A stretch of 49,757 nucleotides of DNA, from assembly GCA_030041495.1 (NCBI GenBank), contig JASHNT010000059.1, forward strand, positions 1-49,757, written 5' to 3'. The notes beneath the pieces are model-generated. The model searched no databases, was not told the origin of the DNA, and worked only from the letters and a program-made list of their open reading frames with translations. Below are positions 25,256-30,567 of the stretch, piece after piece; the first letter of the stretch is position 1; each line of letters begins with the position of its first letter. This stretch comes from Bryobacteraceae bacterium (GTDB lineage: Bacteria > Acidobacteriota > Terriglobia > Bryobacterales > Bryobacteraceae). Both the position numbers and the translations under genes were made by a program.

Positions 25256-26851
25256 CTACGCGGAAAAGACGTCTTCGACGGCTTGCTCGATGGCGGAGTC
25301 GTGCTCGCTCAGGCGCATGACTTCGAGGCGCAGGGCGTCCACCAGGGCGAGCCAGCTCGCTTCGATGACGTTTTCCGAAACGCCGACGGTGGCCCAGCTA
25401 CGCTTGTGGTCGGACCATTCCACCAAGACGCGGACACGGGCGGCGGTGCCCTTCTTGAAATCGAGCACGCGGACTTTGTAATCGGTGAGGCGGACGCTGG
25501 CGATGGAGGGGTAAATCTTGGACAGGCACTGGCGCAGAGCCATATCGAGAGCGTTCACGGGGCCATTGCCGGGAGCGGCGGCGGAGTGAGTCTCGCCGTG
25601 GATTTTCAGCGTGACGGTCGCGGATGAGCCGGACGATTTGGTGGTAGTGGTGTGATAATCCACCACTTCGAAGGGCTGCAAGCCGGGTTGAAGCGCCTGG
25701 CGAACGAGCAATTCGAAAGTGCCTTCCGCGGCTTCCAGCTCATAGCCCTCGAACTCCAGGCGCTTGATGGTTTCCAGAAGCTCGCGGCGAGCGGAATCGT
25801 CGAGGCGGTCTTCGAGGCCATGCTGCTTGAGCTTGTAGAGCACGTTGCCGCGGCCGGAGAGATCGCTTAGCAGGACTCGCTGGCGGTTGCCGACCAGTGC
25901 CGGGTTGATGTGTTCGTAGGTGGCGGACTCCTTCAAAACCGCGCTGACGTGTACGCCGCCCTTGTGTGCAAAGGCGGAGTGACCTGCATAAGGTTGGTCA
26001 TTGCGGACCGGCAGGTTCGCCAGATCCGCGACGAAGCGCGCAACCGCGGTCAGCGTGGCGAGGCGCTCTTTGCCGATGGTGGTGTGGCCCATCTTCAATT
26101 CGAGATTGGCCAGGATGGAGACCATGTTGGCGTTGCCGCAGCGCTCGCCATATCCGTTGATGCAGCCCTGGACGTGCGCGAAACCTTGGTCGATAGCGGC
26201 GAGCGTGTTCGCGACGCCCAAGTCAGAATCATTGTGGGTATGGATTCCGAGCACACCATCAAAACGATTGCGAATATCAGCGCAAGCTTCGGACAGCTTG
26301 CTGGTGAGCATGCCGCCGTTGGTGTCGCACAGGCACAGGACATCGGCGCCGGCCTTCTTTGCCGCTTCGAGAGTGCGCAGGGCGAAATCACGATTGCGGG
26401 TGTAGCCGTCGAAGAAATGCTCGGCGTCATAGACCACTTCCTTGCCGTGAGCCTTGAGGTACTTGACGGTGTCGGTGATCAACGCGAGATTTTCCTCTTC
26501 CGTGATGCCGAGCGCGCGATGCACGTGCAGGTCCCAGCTTTTGCCGAAGATGGAGACGACGGGCGTTTCGGCTTCGATCAAGGCGTTAACGCTGGGGTCG
26601 TTTTCGACCTTGTTACGCGCCATGCGGGTGGCTCCGAAGGCGCACAGGCGAGCATGCTTCAGCGGCTCATGTTTGGCCCGGGCGAAGAAATCTTTATCTT
26701 TGGGATTCGACCCGGGCCAGCCACCTTCGATGTAGTCAATACCGAGCTCGTCCAGTTTGTGCAGAACGAGGATCTTGTCATCGGCAGAGAAGCTGACGGC
26801 TTCGCCTTGGGAGCCGTCGCGCAGGGTGGTATCGAAGGTGAAGATTCGCAT
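25256..26851 (-). CDS. cimA: (R)-citramalate synthase CimA
   Basis: Condenses pyruvate and acetyl-CoA to citramalate, the entry to threonine-independent isoleucine synthesis. The 531-residue protein has the HMG-like catalytic barrel: FDTTLRDGSQGEAV at the start, LCDTNGG, the metal motif IHTHNDSDLGVANT and NGYGERCGNAN, then a C-terminal LeuA regulatory domain from about residue 390. CimA is favoured over LeuA by YIEGGWPGSNPKD and by length. It is the last gene of the ilv operon, 26 bases after ilvC, which supports the isoleucine assignment. Confidence 0.93.
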   Translation of the reverse strand: MRIFTFDTTLRDGSQGEAVSFSADDKILVLHKLDELGIDYIEGGWPGSNPKDKDFFARAKHEPLKHARLCAFGATRMARNKVENDPSVNALIEAETPVVSIFGKSWDLHVHRALGITEEENLALITDTVKYLKAHGKEVVYDAEHFFDGYTRNRDFALRTLEAAKKAGADVLCLCDTNGGMLTSKLSEACADIRNRFDGVLGIHTHNDSDLGVANTLAAIDQGFAHVQGCINGYGERCGNANMVSILANLELKMGHTTIGKERLATLTAVARFVADLANLPVRNDQPYAGHSAFAHKGGVHVSAVLKESATYEHINPALVGNRQRVLLSDLSGRGNVLYKLKQHGLEDRLDDSARRELLETIKRLEFEGYELEAAEGTFELLVRQALQPGLQPFEVVDYHTTTTKSSGSSATVTLKIHGETHSAAAPGNGPVNALDMALRQCLSKIYPSIASVRLTDYKVRVLDFKKGTAARVRVLVEWSDHKRSWATVGVSENVIEASWLALVDALRLEVMRLSEHDSAIEQAVEDVFSA

Positions 26852-26877: not shown

Positions 26878-27900
26878 TTACGAAGAAGCCGGGACGCCGA
26901 CCTCCTTCTTCTTTTTGAGGAACGTCATCATCTTGCGCAGCTCCGCTCCGACTTGTTCGACGGGTTGATGCTGCGCGGCTTCGCGCATGTGCAGAAACTT
27001 GTGGCGGCCGGTTTTGTTTTCATTGATCCAATCCTTGGCGAACTGGCCGGATTGAATCTCGCTCAGGATTTTGCGCATTTCCGCGCGAGTCTGCTCATTG
27101 ATGATGCGCGGTCCGCGGGTGTAATCGCCGTATTCGGCGGTGTCGGAAACGGAGTAGCGCATGTAGCTGAGGCCGCCTTCGTAAATAAGATCGACAATCA
27201 GCTTCAATTCGTGCAGGCACTCGAAGTAGGCGATCTCGGGGGCGTAGCCGGCCGCGACCAGAGTTTCGAAGCCGGCGCGGATCAATTCGGACGCTCCGCC
27301 GCAGAGCACGGCTTGCTCGCCAAAAAGATCGCTCTCGGTTTCCTCTTTGAACGTGGTTTCGATGACGCCGGCCTTGAGGCAGCCGAGACCCATGGCGTAA
27401 GCCAGAGCGTTGGCGTGCGCTTTACCGCTGGCGTCCTGATGCACGGCAATAAGCGCAGGAACGCCGACGCCTTCGGTGAACAGCTCGCGGACGCGATGGC
27501 CCGGAGCCTTGGGCGCGATCATGGAAACGTCGACGCCGGCGGGGGGCTTGATCTGCCCGAAGTGGATATTGAAGCCATGGGCGAACATCAGGGTTTTGCC
27601 GGGAGTGAGATGCGGAGCGATTTCCGCGGCGTACAGATCGCCCTGGATGTGATCCGGAACCAGGATCATCATCGTGTCGGCTTCCTTGGCCGCTTCGGCG
27701 ACCGACATGACTCTGAGGCCGGCGGATTCGGCTTTAACCTTGCTCTTGGAATCCAGACCCAGGCCGACGATGACCTTGAGGCCTGAATCGCGCAGGTTGA
27801 GAGCGTGCGCATGCCCCTGGCTGCCGTAGCCGATAATCGCGATAGTCTTGCCCTTGAGGCGGTCAAGATTTCCGTCCTGCTCGTAAAAACGCTGTGCCAT
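26878..27900 (-). CDS. ilvC: ketol-acid reductoisomerase IlvC
   Basis: Second enzyme of valine/isoleucine synthesis, reducing and isomerising acetolactate or acetohydroxybutyrate with NAD(P)H. The 340 residues match class I enzymes. The Rossmann motif is [34 protein letters not shown] and [14 protein letters not shown] are characteristic, with Glu/Asp metal ligands in the latter region. The ATG follows the ilvH stop directly (TAAATG), so translation is coupled. Confidence 0.96.
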
Positions 27901-28449
27901 TTATTTGAGAACTCCGTCCGTTTTAGTTTCTAAATCCAAATCTTTTTTCACCGGCGGCGCCAGTTTGAGTTTCTTCGCTTCCAACGAGACGGCGACCAAG
28001 CCGGAGCGGGTCACCTCACTCTCGCCATAGCTCTTCATCACTTCAATAAACTCGTCCAGCTTTTCCGAATCACCGGTGGCCTCGATAGCGAAGCCCTCCA
28101 CCGAGCTGTCCACCGCGCGGGCGCCGAAGATTTCGGCTTCCTTGAGGATGGCCGCGCGATTCTGAGGAGTGGCGCGGACACGGATCAGGGCGAGCTCGCG
28201 GCGCACGGCCGGACCTTCGGTCAGGTCCGAGACTTGCAGCACGTTGATCAGCTTGTTCATCTGCTTGATCACCTGCGCGCGCTGGGAGGGATCGACATCG
28301 ACCACGATCGACATGCGCGAAAGCTCGGGATCGAGAGTGCTGGCGACGGTCAGGCTTTCGATGTTGTAGCCGCGCGCGGAAAGGACTCCGGTGACGCGCA
28401 GCAGAGCACCGGGCTTATTTTCGACTAATAAAGAGATTAATTGCAGCAT
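27901..28449 (-). CDS. ilvH: acetolactate synthase small (regulatory) subunit
   Basis: The 182-residue protein starts ISLLVENKPGALLRVTGVLSARGYNIESL, the ACT domain that binds valine for feedback inhibition, and continues with a second ACT-like domain (LALIRVRA, FGARAVDSSVEGFAIEATG). It pairs with the large subunit encoded 35 bases upstream. The symbols ilvH and ilvN are both used for this subunit. Confidence 0.95.
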   Translation of the reverse strand: MLQLISLLVENKPGALLRVTGVLSARGYNIESLTVASTLDPELSRMSIVVDVDPSQRAQVIKQMNKLINVLQVSDLTEGPAVRRELALIRVRATPQNRAAILKEAEIFGARAVDSSVEGFAIEATGDSEKLDEFIEVMKSYGESEVTRSGLVAVSLEAKKLKLAPPVKKDLDLETKTDGVLK

Positions 28450-28484: not shown

Positions 28485-30209
28485 TCACGCCTCCACCGGC
28501 TGGGGCGGAGCAAGCACCATTTCATTGATCGCGCCGCCGGCGGGCACCATGGGATAGACGTTTTCGAACGGCGAGACGCGGACGTTGAGCAGGTAGGGGC
28601 CCGGCTCGGCCACAGCGGCTTCGAGAGCCGCGCGCAGATGCTGCGGCTTTTCGACGGTGCGGCCTTTGAAGCCATAGGCTCCGGCGAGTTTTTCGGGGTC
28701 GGGGAAGCTAATGAGCTCGGCCGCGCTCAAGCGGTTGTTGTAGAACAGCTCCTGCCACTGCCGGATCATGCCCAGATAGCCGTTGTTCATGACGATGATT
28801 TTGACCGGCAGATTTTGATTCGCGACGGTGGCGAGCTCCGGAATCGACATCTGGAATCCGCCGTCGCCGACGATGGCGAAGACCAGCTTGTCAGGATTCG
28901 CCATTTGCGCGCCGATGGCGGCGGGGAAGCCGAAGCCCATCGCGCCCAGGCCGCCGGAATTGAGCCACAGCCGCGGATGATTGAAGCGGATGAACTGCGC
29001 GGCCCACATCTGGTGCTGGCCGACGTCGGCGCAGACAATGGCTTCGCCGCCGGAGATGCGATCGATCTCGGACATCAGGTGCTGCGGCTTGATTTCGTCG
29101 GAGGAGAATTCGGGCTCGAGCGGATGCTCGTGCATCCAGTCGCGGACGCGGGCGCGCCAGCCGGCGCGGGCGGCTTCGTTGCGCTCCTTTTGATCCGCGG
29201 AGTCGCGCAATTCCTGATTCAATTTCTCGAGGACTTTCTGGCAATCGCCCACGATGGGCACATCGGCGGTGCGATTCTTGCCGATTTCGGCTGGGTCTAT
29301 GTCCACGTGGATCACTTTCGCGTGCGGGGCAAATGCGGCGAGCCGCCCGGTGACGCGATCGTCGAAGCGCACGCCCAAAGCGATGATGAGGTCGGTTTCG
29401 GTCATCGCCATGTTGGAGGCGTAGCTGCCGTGCATGCCGGGCATGCTGATGAAATTGGGATGGCCGGAGGGCATGCCGCCGAGCCCCATCAGGGTGCAGA
29501 CGGCGGGCGCATCGACACGCTCGACCAGTTCGCGAAGGTCTTCGGAAGCTCCCGCGGCGATGATGCCTCCGCCGGCGTAGACGATGGGCCGCGAGGATTC
29601 CCAGATGAGCTGCGCGGCGCGGCGAATCTGTCCCGCGTGGCCTTCGGTGTAGACCTTGTAGCCGGGCAGATGGATGTGCGAAACGGGCGTGTAGTGGGTG
29701 GTGGCTTGAAACACGTCCTTGGGAATATCGACCAGCACCGGTCCGGGCCGTCCGGTAGAGGCGATGTGGAAAGCTTCATGGATGGTTTGTGGAAGCTCGG
29801 CGAGTTTCTTCACCAGGAAATTGTGCTTGGTGCAGGAGCGGGTGATACCGAAGGTGTCGGCTTCCTGAAATGCATCGCTGCCGATGAGCTTGGTGGTGAC
29901 CTGACCGGTGATGGCGACCACGGGGATCGAATCCATCATGGCGTCGACCAGAGCGGTGACCAGGTTGGTTGCGCCGGGTCCGGAAGTCGCCAGACAAACG
30001 CCCACCTTGCCGGTGGAGCGCGCGTAACCCTCCGCCGCGAAGCACGCGTTCTGCTCGTGGCGGACCAGCACGTGCTTCAAGGGGTGGTCATACAAGGCAT
30101 CGTAGAGAGGCAGCGTCACGCCGCCGGGATAGCCGAAAATGACATCCACTTTTTCGCGCGTCAGGCATTCGAGCAGAATTCGCGCCCCGTTCATTAAGTT
30201 CGCCGACAT
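28485..30209 (-). CDS. ilvB: acetolactate synthase large (catalytic) subunit
   Basis: Thiamine-diphosphate enzyme making acetolactate or acetohydroxybutyrate from pyruvate. The ATG at 30209 is chosen because GGGAG lies 8 bases upstream and MNGARILLECL is the usual start; ATG 30224 is an alternative. The 574 residues show VIFGYPGGVTLPLYDAL, the ThDP glutamate in VLVRHEQNACFAAEGYARSTG, and the metal motif VGDGGFQMSIPELATVANQNLPVKIIVMN at the C-terminal domain. It is the first structural gene of ilvBHC-cimA and is preceded by a leader peptide and attenuator hairpin. Confidence 0.96.
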   Translation of the reverse strand: MSANLMNGARILLECLTREKVDVIFGYPGGVTLPLYDALYDHPLKHVLVRHEQNACFAAEGYARSTGKVGVCLATSGPGATNLVTALVDAMMDSIPVVAITGQVTTKLIGSDAFQEADTFGITRSCTKHNFLVKKLAELPQTIHEAFHIASTGRPGPVLVDIPKDVFQATTHYTPVSHIHLPGYKVYTEGHAGQIRRAAQLIWESSRPIVYAGGGIIAAGASEDLRELVERVDAPAVCTLMGLGGMPSGHPNFISMPGMHGSYASNMAMTETDLIIALGVRFDDRVTGRLAAFAPHAKVIHVDIDPAEIGKNRTADVPIVGDCQKVLEKLNQELRDSADQKERNEAARAGWRARVRDWMHEHPLEPEFSSDEIKPQHLMSEIDRISGGEAIVCADVGQHQMWAAQFIRFNHPRLWLNSGGLGAMGFGFPAAIGAQMANPDKLVFAIVGDGGFQMSIPELATVANQNLPVKIIVMNNGYLGMIRQWQELFYNNRLSAAELISFPDPEKLAGAYGFKGRTVEKPQHLRAALEAAVAEPGPYLLNVRVSPFENVYPMVPAGGAINEMVLAPPQPVEA

Positions 30210-30248
30210 TGCATCGTCTCCCATGAGGTGGTCACTAAGAAGCAGTCC

Positions 30249-30294
30249 AAAACGAAAAGCCACTGTCGAGGGTTTGTTGCCCCCGCCCAGTGGC
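30249..30294 (-). terminator. intrinsic terminator (attenuator) before ilvB
   Basis: On the minus strand GCCACTG (30294-30288) pairs with CAGTGGC (30265-30259), a perfect 7-bp stem that can extend inside through GGG/CCC pairing, and is followed by TTTTCGTTTT (30258-30249). It lies between the Ile/Val/Leu-rich leader ORF and ilvB, exactly where a transcription attenuator should be. Confidence 0.82.
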
Positions 30295-30329
30295 CAAGAA
30301 TCTTACGAATTCAGGCCGTTCAGGCGGGG
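30281..30329 (-). promoter_or_regulatory. candidate antiterminator pairing of the ilv leader
   Basis: CCCCGCC at the end of the leader ORF (minus strand, 30329-30323) can pair perfectly with GGCGGGG (30287-30281), which lies inside the terminator just after its 5' arm. Forming this 7-bp GC stem would disrupt the terminator. This is the 2:3 pairing of a classical attenuator; no folding calculation was possible. Confidence 0.55.
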
Positions 30330-30436
30330 CCGGTTACACCGACCCCAATAATCAGAACGAGCCCGACTACAATAATTCCGGTAGAGAGTCCAAGGGAACT
30401 GGTGCGGAGGGCCTGGTTGGGTTCCGAGTGAGTCAT
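30320..30436 (-). CDS. ilv operon leader peptide (38 residues)
   Basis: A 38-codon ORF begins at ATG 30436, about 110 bases upstream of the ilvB promoter-proximal start region, with a weak GAGAG ribosome site. Residues 21-34 read IIVVGLVLIIGVGV, so 11 of 14 are Ile, Val or Leu, the products of the operon. The ORF ends 25 bases before the terminator stem begins. Slow translation of these codons when branched-chain amino acids are scarce would favour the antiterminator. It could also be a small membrane peptide, but the terminator downstream favours a leader. Confidence 0.75.
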   Translation of the reverse strand: MTHSEPNQALRTSSLGLSTGIIVVGLVLIIGVGVTGPA

Positions 30437-30453
30437 CGTGGTCTCTCAAAGAG

Positions 30454-30483
30454 AGGATAGCCTAGTAAGGCGGGCAAATGCAA
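30454..30483 (-). promoter_or_regulatory. candidate ilv operon promoter
   Basis: TTGCAT (30483-30478) and TATCCT (30459-30454) are separated by 18 bases on the minus strand, and the leader ATG follows 17 bases later. Moderate match only. Confidence 0.4.
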
Positions 30484-30567
30484 GAGGGAATGGGGATTAA
30501 ATATATTAATGGAGAGATTTCGGGTGCTGGGTTGAGAGAGTAACCGTTAGGATGGAGTTGAAAGGCT

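Follow-up and report, generated by a model that had tools for sequence, protein, structure and literature searches.

The region upstream of ilvB in a Bryobacteraceae bacterium raises the question of whether expression of the operon is set by a transcription attenuator with its own leader peptide. An earlier note, made from the sequence alone, had described such an attenuator in a stretch of 49,757 nucleotides (contig JASHNT010000059.1, hereafter the window) and had taken the DNA to be acidobacterial. This origin was confirmed, the best named relatives being Bryobacterales or Acidobacteria contigs with 73-77% IlvB identity. The attenuator interpretation is now supported by conservation, by covariation and by the expected switch of folds in 55/55 loci.

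Leader reading frame, promoter and operon

On the minus strand, promoter-like boxes are followed by the leader ORF, the terminator and ilvB-ilvN-ilvC-cimA (Table 1). The -35 box TTGCAT begins exactly at 30483, the upper bound given previously for the region. Judging from the spacing of the boxes, transcription probably starts near 30447, and the leader start codon follows after about 11 nt. A scan for consensus promoters and terminators found no promoter and no terminator at the leader region. The terminator stem has an internal loop, which the scan probably does not allow.

Table 1. Features of the leader region and the operon in the window
Feature	Position	Strand	Remarks
-35 box TTGCAT	30478-30483	-	TTGCAT-type box in 55/55 first-set loci and 53/57 second-set loci
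-10 box TATCCT	30454-30459	-	spacer 18
5' arm of 5' hairpin (P0)	30440-30447	-	GAGAGACC; in the ribosome-binding region of the leader
Leader ORF	30320-30436	-	38 codons; stop codon TGA at 30322-30320
3' arm of 5' hairpin (P0)	30384-30391	-	GGACTCTC; leader codons 16-18
Control codons	30335-30376	-	11 Ile/Val/Leu, residues 21-34
Segment 1	30338-30346	-	GGGGTCGGT; 5' arm of protector hairpin
Segment 2	30326-30334	-	ACCGGCCCC; 3' arm of protector hairpin
Antiterminator 5' arm	30322-30329	-	CCCCGCC + U; codes for C-terminal Pro-Ala
Segment 3	30281-30288	-	GGGCGGGG; antiterminator 3' arm and part of terminator 5' arm
Intrinsic terminator hairpin (segments 3:4)	30258-30295	-	-23.4 kcal/mol; T-rich tail from 30257
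ilvB, acetolactate synthase large subunit	28485-30209	-	TIGR00118 800.5 bits (cut-off 538.35); start codon by eye
ilvN, acetolactate synthase small subunit	27901-28449	-	TIGR00119 168.9 bits (cut-off 56.9)
ilvC, ketol-acid reductoisomerase	26878-27900	-	TIGR00465 452.4 bits (cut-off 226.15)
cimA, citramalate synthase (isoleucine route)	25256-26851	-	TIGR00977 688.5 bits (cut-off 450)

The 38-codon ORF that had been pointed out, with 11 Ile/Val/Leu among residues 21-34, is present at 30436-30320 and its peptide reads MTHSEPNQALRTSSLGLSTGIIVVGLVLIIGVGVTGPA. The window contains 475 ORFs that are 15-70 codons long, and this one ranks first among them for Ile/Val/Leu (the runner-up has 8/14). When the sense strand of 30210-30559 was shuffled with its dinucleotides kept, 11 Ile/Val/Leu were reached in 1 of 2000 shuffles. 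The leader region also folds better than its shuffles (z = -2.86; 2/200 shuffles equal it).

IlvB was searched in 101 genomes and a match at 1e-100 was obtained in 95. There are 61 same-family genomes, and ilvB is present with its 5' end in 56 of them, as a 3' part in three and without a match in two. A leader of this kind was found in all 56 genomes. We assembled a first set of 55 loci, which consists of 54 from these genomes (the other two are G059 and G007) and one named contig, L036. The following were excluded before counting: L034 and L037 (ilvB 5' end or upstream sequence missing), L173 (a second paralogue, 38% identical), L002-L004 (distant paralogues), L171 (ilvB N-terminus unplaced) and L035 (leaderless, and counted as an exception). 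L035 is a Bryobacterales contig with an IlvB that is 75% identical; the TTGCAT box is kept and no leader or terminator was seen there. A leaderless ilvB with a TTGCAT box provides a natural comparison.

A second set of 60 loci was taken from genomes outside the first 101, among the matches listed for model R2 (a family model of 60 sequences), and was picked for genus spread. The selection by R2 rests on control codons, protector hairpin and terminator, and involves neither the promoter nor the 5' hairpin. Twenty of the 60 loci come from genera of the first sample, and one locus, L254, lies on a contig already present in the first set as L036. Because of this overlap, the tests were also run on new genera alone and with each genus represented by a single locus. 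TTGCAT (or TTGTAT/TTGCGT), a spacer of 16-18 nt and TAnnnT were found in 55/55 first-set loci, and the same TTGCAT-type and TAnnnT pattern in 53 of the 57 second-set loci that precede ilvB.

The last 14 codons of the 55 first-set leaders contain on average 7.4 Ile/Val/Leu, as compared with 2.7 in dinucleotide shuffles. For a single locus, 0 to 16 of 100 shuffles match the leader score (median 1), and the weakest leaders taken alone are those of L122 (16/100) and L136 (12/100). In 5/55 loci no in-frame start codon was found at least 5 nt past the predicted transcription start; the leaders with a start are 18-51 codons long in 49/50 cases. In the genus of the window the length is 32 to 51 codons, and 20/20 aligned leaders have PNQ (once ANQ) near the start and the tail near the stop in one frame. 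Counted back from the stop codon, Val at positions -5 and -7 is the most constant residue, and positions -9 to -11 often carry Ile (the codon-position table excludes L027). Codon usage differs from that of ilvB: the first-set leaders prefer ATT (66% vs 24%), GTA (48% vs 6%) and CTT (40% vs 8%), whereas ilvB prefers ATC, GTG and CTG. RNA structure may be part of the cause of this preference; GTA at -5 sits at the protector loop.

The Pro-Asn-Gln codons, CCCAACCAGG (30412-30421, minus strand), are near-invariant in the window's genus, silent positions included. They lie in a small hairpin predicted by RNAalifold, the outer pair of which is changed on both sides in 5/20 leaders.

Terminator, antiterminator and ribosome position

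The terminator hairpin with a T-rich tract that had been proposed was found at 30295-30258 (-23.4 kcal/mol), and a T-tailed hairpin lies between leader and gene in 55/55 first-set loci (53 placed automatically and 2 by hand). The hand-placed terminators are those of L012 and L136; the leaders of L118 and L301 were likewise placed by hand after a wrong automatic choice. The distance from terminator to ilvB is 4 to 146 nt in the 53 automatically placed loci. These data bear on the idea that the leader acts not on an intrinsic terminator but by translation, freeing the ilvB ribosome-binding site, or through Rho. Similar leaders of cys operons and leuA in Actinobacteria may work in one of these ways, their mode being left open in the available text of PMC1262725. 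The presence of the T-tailed hairpin at every first-set locus argues against such a mode in Bryobacterales, and with a distance that varies so widely, the hairpin is unlikely to be linked in a fixed way to the ilvB ribosome-binding site. We consider this explanation very unlikely.

The 7-bp GC stem reported previously could also be placed: CCCCGCC (30329-30323) pairs inside GGGCGGGG (30288-30281), and one U-G pair is added. To measure covariation without an alignment, we used a swap test, in which the duplex energy of the own partners is compared with that of partners swapped among loci in 20,000 permutations; since the loci are related, the resulting counts are not strict probabilities. In the first set (n = 55), the own antiterminator partners gave -18.28 kcal/mol and swapped partners -17.29 kcal/mol (0/20,000). 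The count was 81/20,000 within the window's genus, 0/20,000 for the other genera, and 1211/20,000, not significant, for families f2 and f3 of the same order alone (n = 15). The second set was tested without its three citramalate synthase loci and, for the antiterminator, without L297, which is cut by the contig end (n = 56); the count was 0/20,000. Genera absent from the first set gave 1/20,000 (n = 35) or 10/20,000 (n = 27, one locus each), and one locus from each of 62 genera gave 0/20,000. The terminator arms, used as a positive control, gave 0/20,000. As a further control, the stretch 50-75 nt upstream was tested against segment 2, and the counts were 1928 in the first set, 984 outside the genus and 9673 in the second set.

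Every one of the seven antiterminator positions (-7 to -1) shows two or more standard pair types. At position -2, for example, the pairs among 70 loci are CG 51, GC 16 and TA 1; pair types were read from best duplexes, so that these counts lean towards pairing. Tests on the 70 loci were made without the f2/f3 loci L142, L147 and L153, in which the script did not place the leader. CCUCGCC is combined with GGCGAGG in four genus members and with GGCGGGG in two. L168 combines CCUGCU with AGCAGG, and family f3 combines CCCCGG with CCGGGG. In L027, the leader stop precedes segment 2 and the CCCCGC bases are nevertheless retained. Because the bases are kept there without the codons, it is the RNA pairing, and not the Gly-Pro-Ala peptide, that is kept. 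Leader, terminator and antiterminator are thus conserved across the family with compensatory changes, and the conservation check proposed with the original description gave a positive result.

The same observations speak to the possibility that the ORF encodes a functional small membrane protein and that the terminator is incidental. Residues 20-35 are, by eye, hydrophobic enough for a short transmembrane helix. Between genera, however, the Ile/Val/Leu content and mostly the Gly-Pro-Ala end are kept, length and order vary freely, and the bases of the Gly-Pro-Ala codons covary with their RNA partner, with L027 losing the codons and retaining the bases. We regard a membrane protein as highly improbable.

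A structured leader with a terminator ahead of an ilv operon could also belong to a ligand-binding riboswitch, a T-box or another RNA sensor that controls the terminator, with the ORF unused for sensing. T-boxes control such genes in other bacteria. In some bacteria, ppGpp riboswitches control ilvB, according to the available part of PMC10272879. Against a sensor, no family of Rfam 15, riboswitches included, matched in the window at the curated score (4227 families), and the constant columns of the family alignment fall mostly in the control codons, in segments 2-4 and in the T tract. The leader alone at a permissive threshold gave two weak, implausible Rfam matches, and the loci of 18 relatives gave only a tRNA. 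We give such a sensor hardly any credence.

The dependence of the fold on ribosome position, suggested earlier as a check, came out as expected. A ribosome set on codon -10 lets the antiterminator form ahead of segment 4 in 55/55 loci (a folding model in which the kinetic order is assumed); with the ribosome on the stop codon, the terminator folds in 55/55. Folding without a ribosome gave the terminator in 49/55 first-set loci. In the full-length equilibrium fold of the stalled state, the terminator is still favored in 48/55. Therefore, the switch must be kinetic. Timing is also decisive in kinetic models of the trp and his attenuators, as given in the available part of PMC1183508. The protector hairpin (segments 1:2) is strong and nearly invariant within the window's genus. 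Its swap test gave 17/20,000 in the first set, 7074/20,000 in the second set and 3257/20,000 with one locus per genus, so that no covariation was found outside the first set, either in the second set or in the 62-genus sample.

The sequence thus contains a leader ORF, codons for the end products, a predicted intrinsic terminator, an exclusive antiterminator and, in the folding model, a switch by ribosome position. We propose, with a probability of about 0.9, that a ribosome-mediated transcription attenuator sets the expression of ilvB-ilvN-ilvC-cimA according to the supply of charged Ile and Val (and Leu) tRNA. The computed support covers the promoter, the leader, the terminator, the exclusive and covarying antiterminator, the placement of codons and the folding per ribosome position. 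Translation of the leader, termination of the RNA and relief by amino-acid starvation would follow from this arrangement. One report counts against the proposal: in Streptomyces coelicolor, altering the control codons left a look-alike ilvB leader unaffected, according to the available text of PMC1262725.

In the proposed mechanism, transcription would start about 11 nt before the leader start codon and the 5' hairpin would form first; loading of a ribosome on the leader would then open it. When amino acids are ample, the ribosome would reach the TGA codon and cover segment 2, and the 3:4 terminator would halt RNA polymerase. During a shortage of Ile or Val, the ribosome would wait on Ile/Val codons at and upstream of segment 1. 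Segment 2 (CCCCGCC), left uncovered by the waiting ribosome, would then pair with segment 3 (GGCGGGG) before segment 4 exists, and once this antiterminator is formed, the polymerase would continue into ilvB.

A probable hairpin at the 5' end of the leader transcript

A further putative hairpin, P0, in which the start of the predicted transcript pairs with early codons of the leader, had escaped the earlier note; it was spotted by eye and then tested. In the window its own duplex has -11.2 kcal/mol and is also part of the MFE fold. Because MAFFT aligns the P0 region unevenly, we relied on the alignment-free swap test; RNAalifold on the genus alignment did not show P0. In the first set, the counts out of 20,000 were 0 for the genus, 6 for the other 35 loci and 0 for all 55 loci, and the controls gave 4140 (-35 spacer DNA) and 9313 (the next 18 nt). 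The second set has 53 usable loci, L250, L267 and L288 having no promoter match. There the own partners gave -11.82 and swapped partners -10.16 kcal/mol (0/20,000), with 15499, 5660 and 2678 in three controls, and thinning to less than 60% identity (52 loci) gave the same result.

The signal in new genera alone was smaller. For 35 loci of new genera, own partners gave -11.04 and swapped partners -10.15 kcal/mol (346/20,000; next-18-nt control 1161), and one locus per new genus (n = 27) gave 287/20,000 (control 1322). For the 62-genus sample (one locus per genus), the values were -11.83 and -10.49 kcal/mol (sd 0.30), the count was 0/20,000 and the controls were 10662, 2778 and 83. The low control pairs the 5' end with the 63 nt after the leader stop; it gave 83/20,000 in the 62 genera, 39/20,000 in the first set (35 genera) and 2678/20,000 in the second set. 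This signal may mean that the 5' end can alternatively form a long-range pairing, or that the swap test is biased.

A 5' duplex at least as stable as -10 kcal/mol is present in 79/108 loci, and 64 of these 79 strong duplexes end upstream of codon -10, with over 30 nt left to the leader stop. Shuffle z-scores for P0 alone are modest (mean -1.3), and a search for the pause-site consensus behind P0 revealed no enrichment. From the swap tests, P0 is likely to exist. It could act as a gate for starting or loading, or as a pause hairpin. We tentatively suggest, at odds well below even, that P0 is a second, separate device, namely a loading gate that makes the polymerase and the first ribosome start together and that covaries while its sequence drifts. 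Our estimate for the gate was lowered because new genera alone gave 346/20,000 and one control was low (83/20,000).

Distribution and comparison with known attenuators

Model R1, which covers the 3' part and was built from the window's genus, matches 59/101 genomes. Model R2 matches 204/237 genomes and 72/76 genera of the family (the leaders of 53 of these genomes are in the model). Among 396 genomes drawn from the phylum, R2 matches 6: the genome of the window, two further genomes of the same genus, that of L213 and two with apparently spurious matches. By eye, the R1/R2 matches L207, L210, L214 and L215 look spurious. In families f2 and f3, leader-like ORFs were found, mostly with a Pro-Gly end, and the T-tailed hairpins are weak or absent in genus g41 of f3. 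Sixteen loci represent other orders of the class: in 15 of them no ORF before ilvB passes a loose 7-of-12 filter, and L157 passes it narrowly. A palindrome, TACCGAC[CT]GGTCGGTA, is present upstream of ilvB in L157, L158 and L159 (family f6). It resembles a TetR-type operator, and perhaps represents another mode of ilvB control in this sister family.

In the second set, 57/60 matches precede ilvB and 3/60 precede genes that best fit citramalate synthase (N-terminal part). At second sites in family genomes, leaders were also found ahead of cimA in L204 (over the TIGR00977 cut-off), ahead of an IlvN-type gene in L205 (over the TIGR00119 cut-off), ahead of shorter ACT-domain genes in L206 and L208 (below the TIGR00119 cut-off) and, in another class of the phylum, ahead of a citramalate synthase gene in L213. 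In L208, the ACT-domain gene is followed by an ORF that looks, by eye, like threonine dehydratase. Related Ile/Val leaders ahead of citramalate synthase or IlvN-type/ACT-domain genes are those of L204, L205, L206, L208, L213, L283, L306 and L308. Beyond the ilvB operon, the attenuator thus seems to accompany other genes of the branched-chain pathway as well. No Ile/Val/Leu-rich leader was found among the ORFs listed upstream of leuA in the window's genome.

A different kind of leader was observed ahead of a nitrite/sulfite reductase-like gene, for which the best model is ferredoxin-nitrite reductase, below the cut-off. These ORFs are rich in Cys (e.g. ...QGCCCSCCCPISPAVG) and occur in L209 (the same gene as L219) and L220-L247. 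Thirty of 36 matches were taken, and in 29 of them the upstream sequence is long enough; the Cys-rich leader is present in 27 of these 29 loci, and in 22/29 it is followed by a T-tailed hairpin at least as stable as -12 kcal/mol. These loci likely carry a cysteine attenuator, with putative terminators, which are missing from the cys leaders of Mycobacterium as reported in the available part of PMC1262725.

How does the Bryobacterales element compare with known attenuators? The leader peptides of the enteric ilvGMEDA, ilvBN and leu operons contain Ile/Val/Leu. As far as the available text of PMC1183508 goes, these enteric attenuators likewise serve branched-chain operons, and the enteric trp and his attenuators share with the Bryobacterales leader the leader ORF, the control codons and exclusive 2:3 and 3:4 hairpins. 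The enteric operons belong to a different phylum, and the Bryobacterales leader has no Rfam match. The his attenuator resembles the Bryobacterales one in having a further hairpin in addition to the switch. The control region of trp lies within its pause hairpin I:II (PMC1183508, same part), whereas P0 involves the ribosome-binding region, located at the predicted 5' end of the transcript.

In the available part of PMC10272879, the Corynebacterium ilvBNC leader (ilvB-II) and ilvB-OMG are likewise short ORFs rich in branched-chain residues before ilvB, a terminator is described for the ilvB-II motif, and the ilvB-OMG set spans various phyla. The ilvB-II leaders there usually have 15-17 codons, as compared with 18-51 in 49/50 first-set leaders. 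Candidate leader ORFs before ilvB and cys operons are described for Actinobacteria too; in the available part of that source (PMC1262725) the mode of the ilvB leaders is left unclear and the cys leaders are without obvious terminators, whereas leader, antiterminator and terminator are all present in Bryobacterales. As judged from its sequence, the Bryobacterales element is a functionally classical leader-peptide attenuator, of a kind already known. P0 may make it a variant.

A 2010 comparative survey by Lopatovskaya and colleagues may list some such attenuators. In the available parts of the literature on leader peptides or attenuation in Acidobacteria/Acidobacteriota or Solibacter, PMC2965389 included, no such report was apparent.

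These results indicate peptide attenuation for isoleucine/valine genes in a soil phylum outside the usually studied groups. They provide an attenuator with defined parts and a large natural data set for the study of attenuator evolution. If the gate reading of P0 is true, synchrony would come from ribosome binding and not, as in trp, from a pause hairpin that holds the control codons. P0 makes the synchronization of ribosome and polymerase testable outside enteric bacteria.
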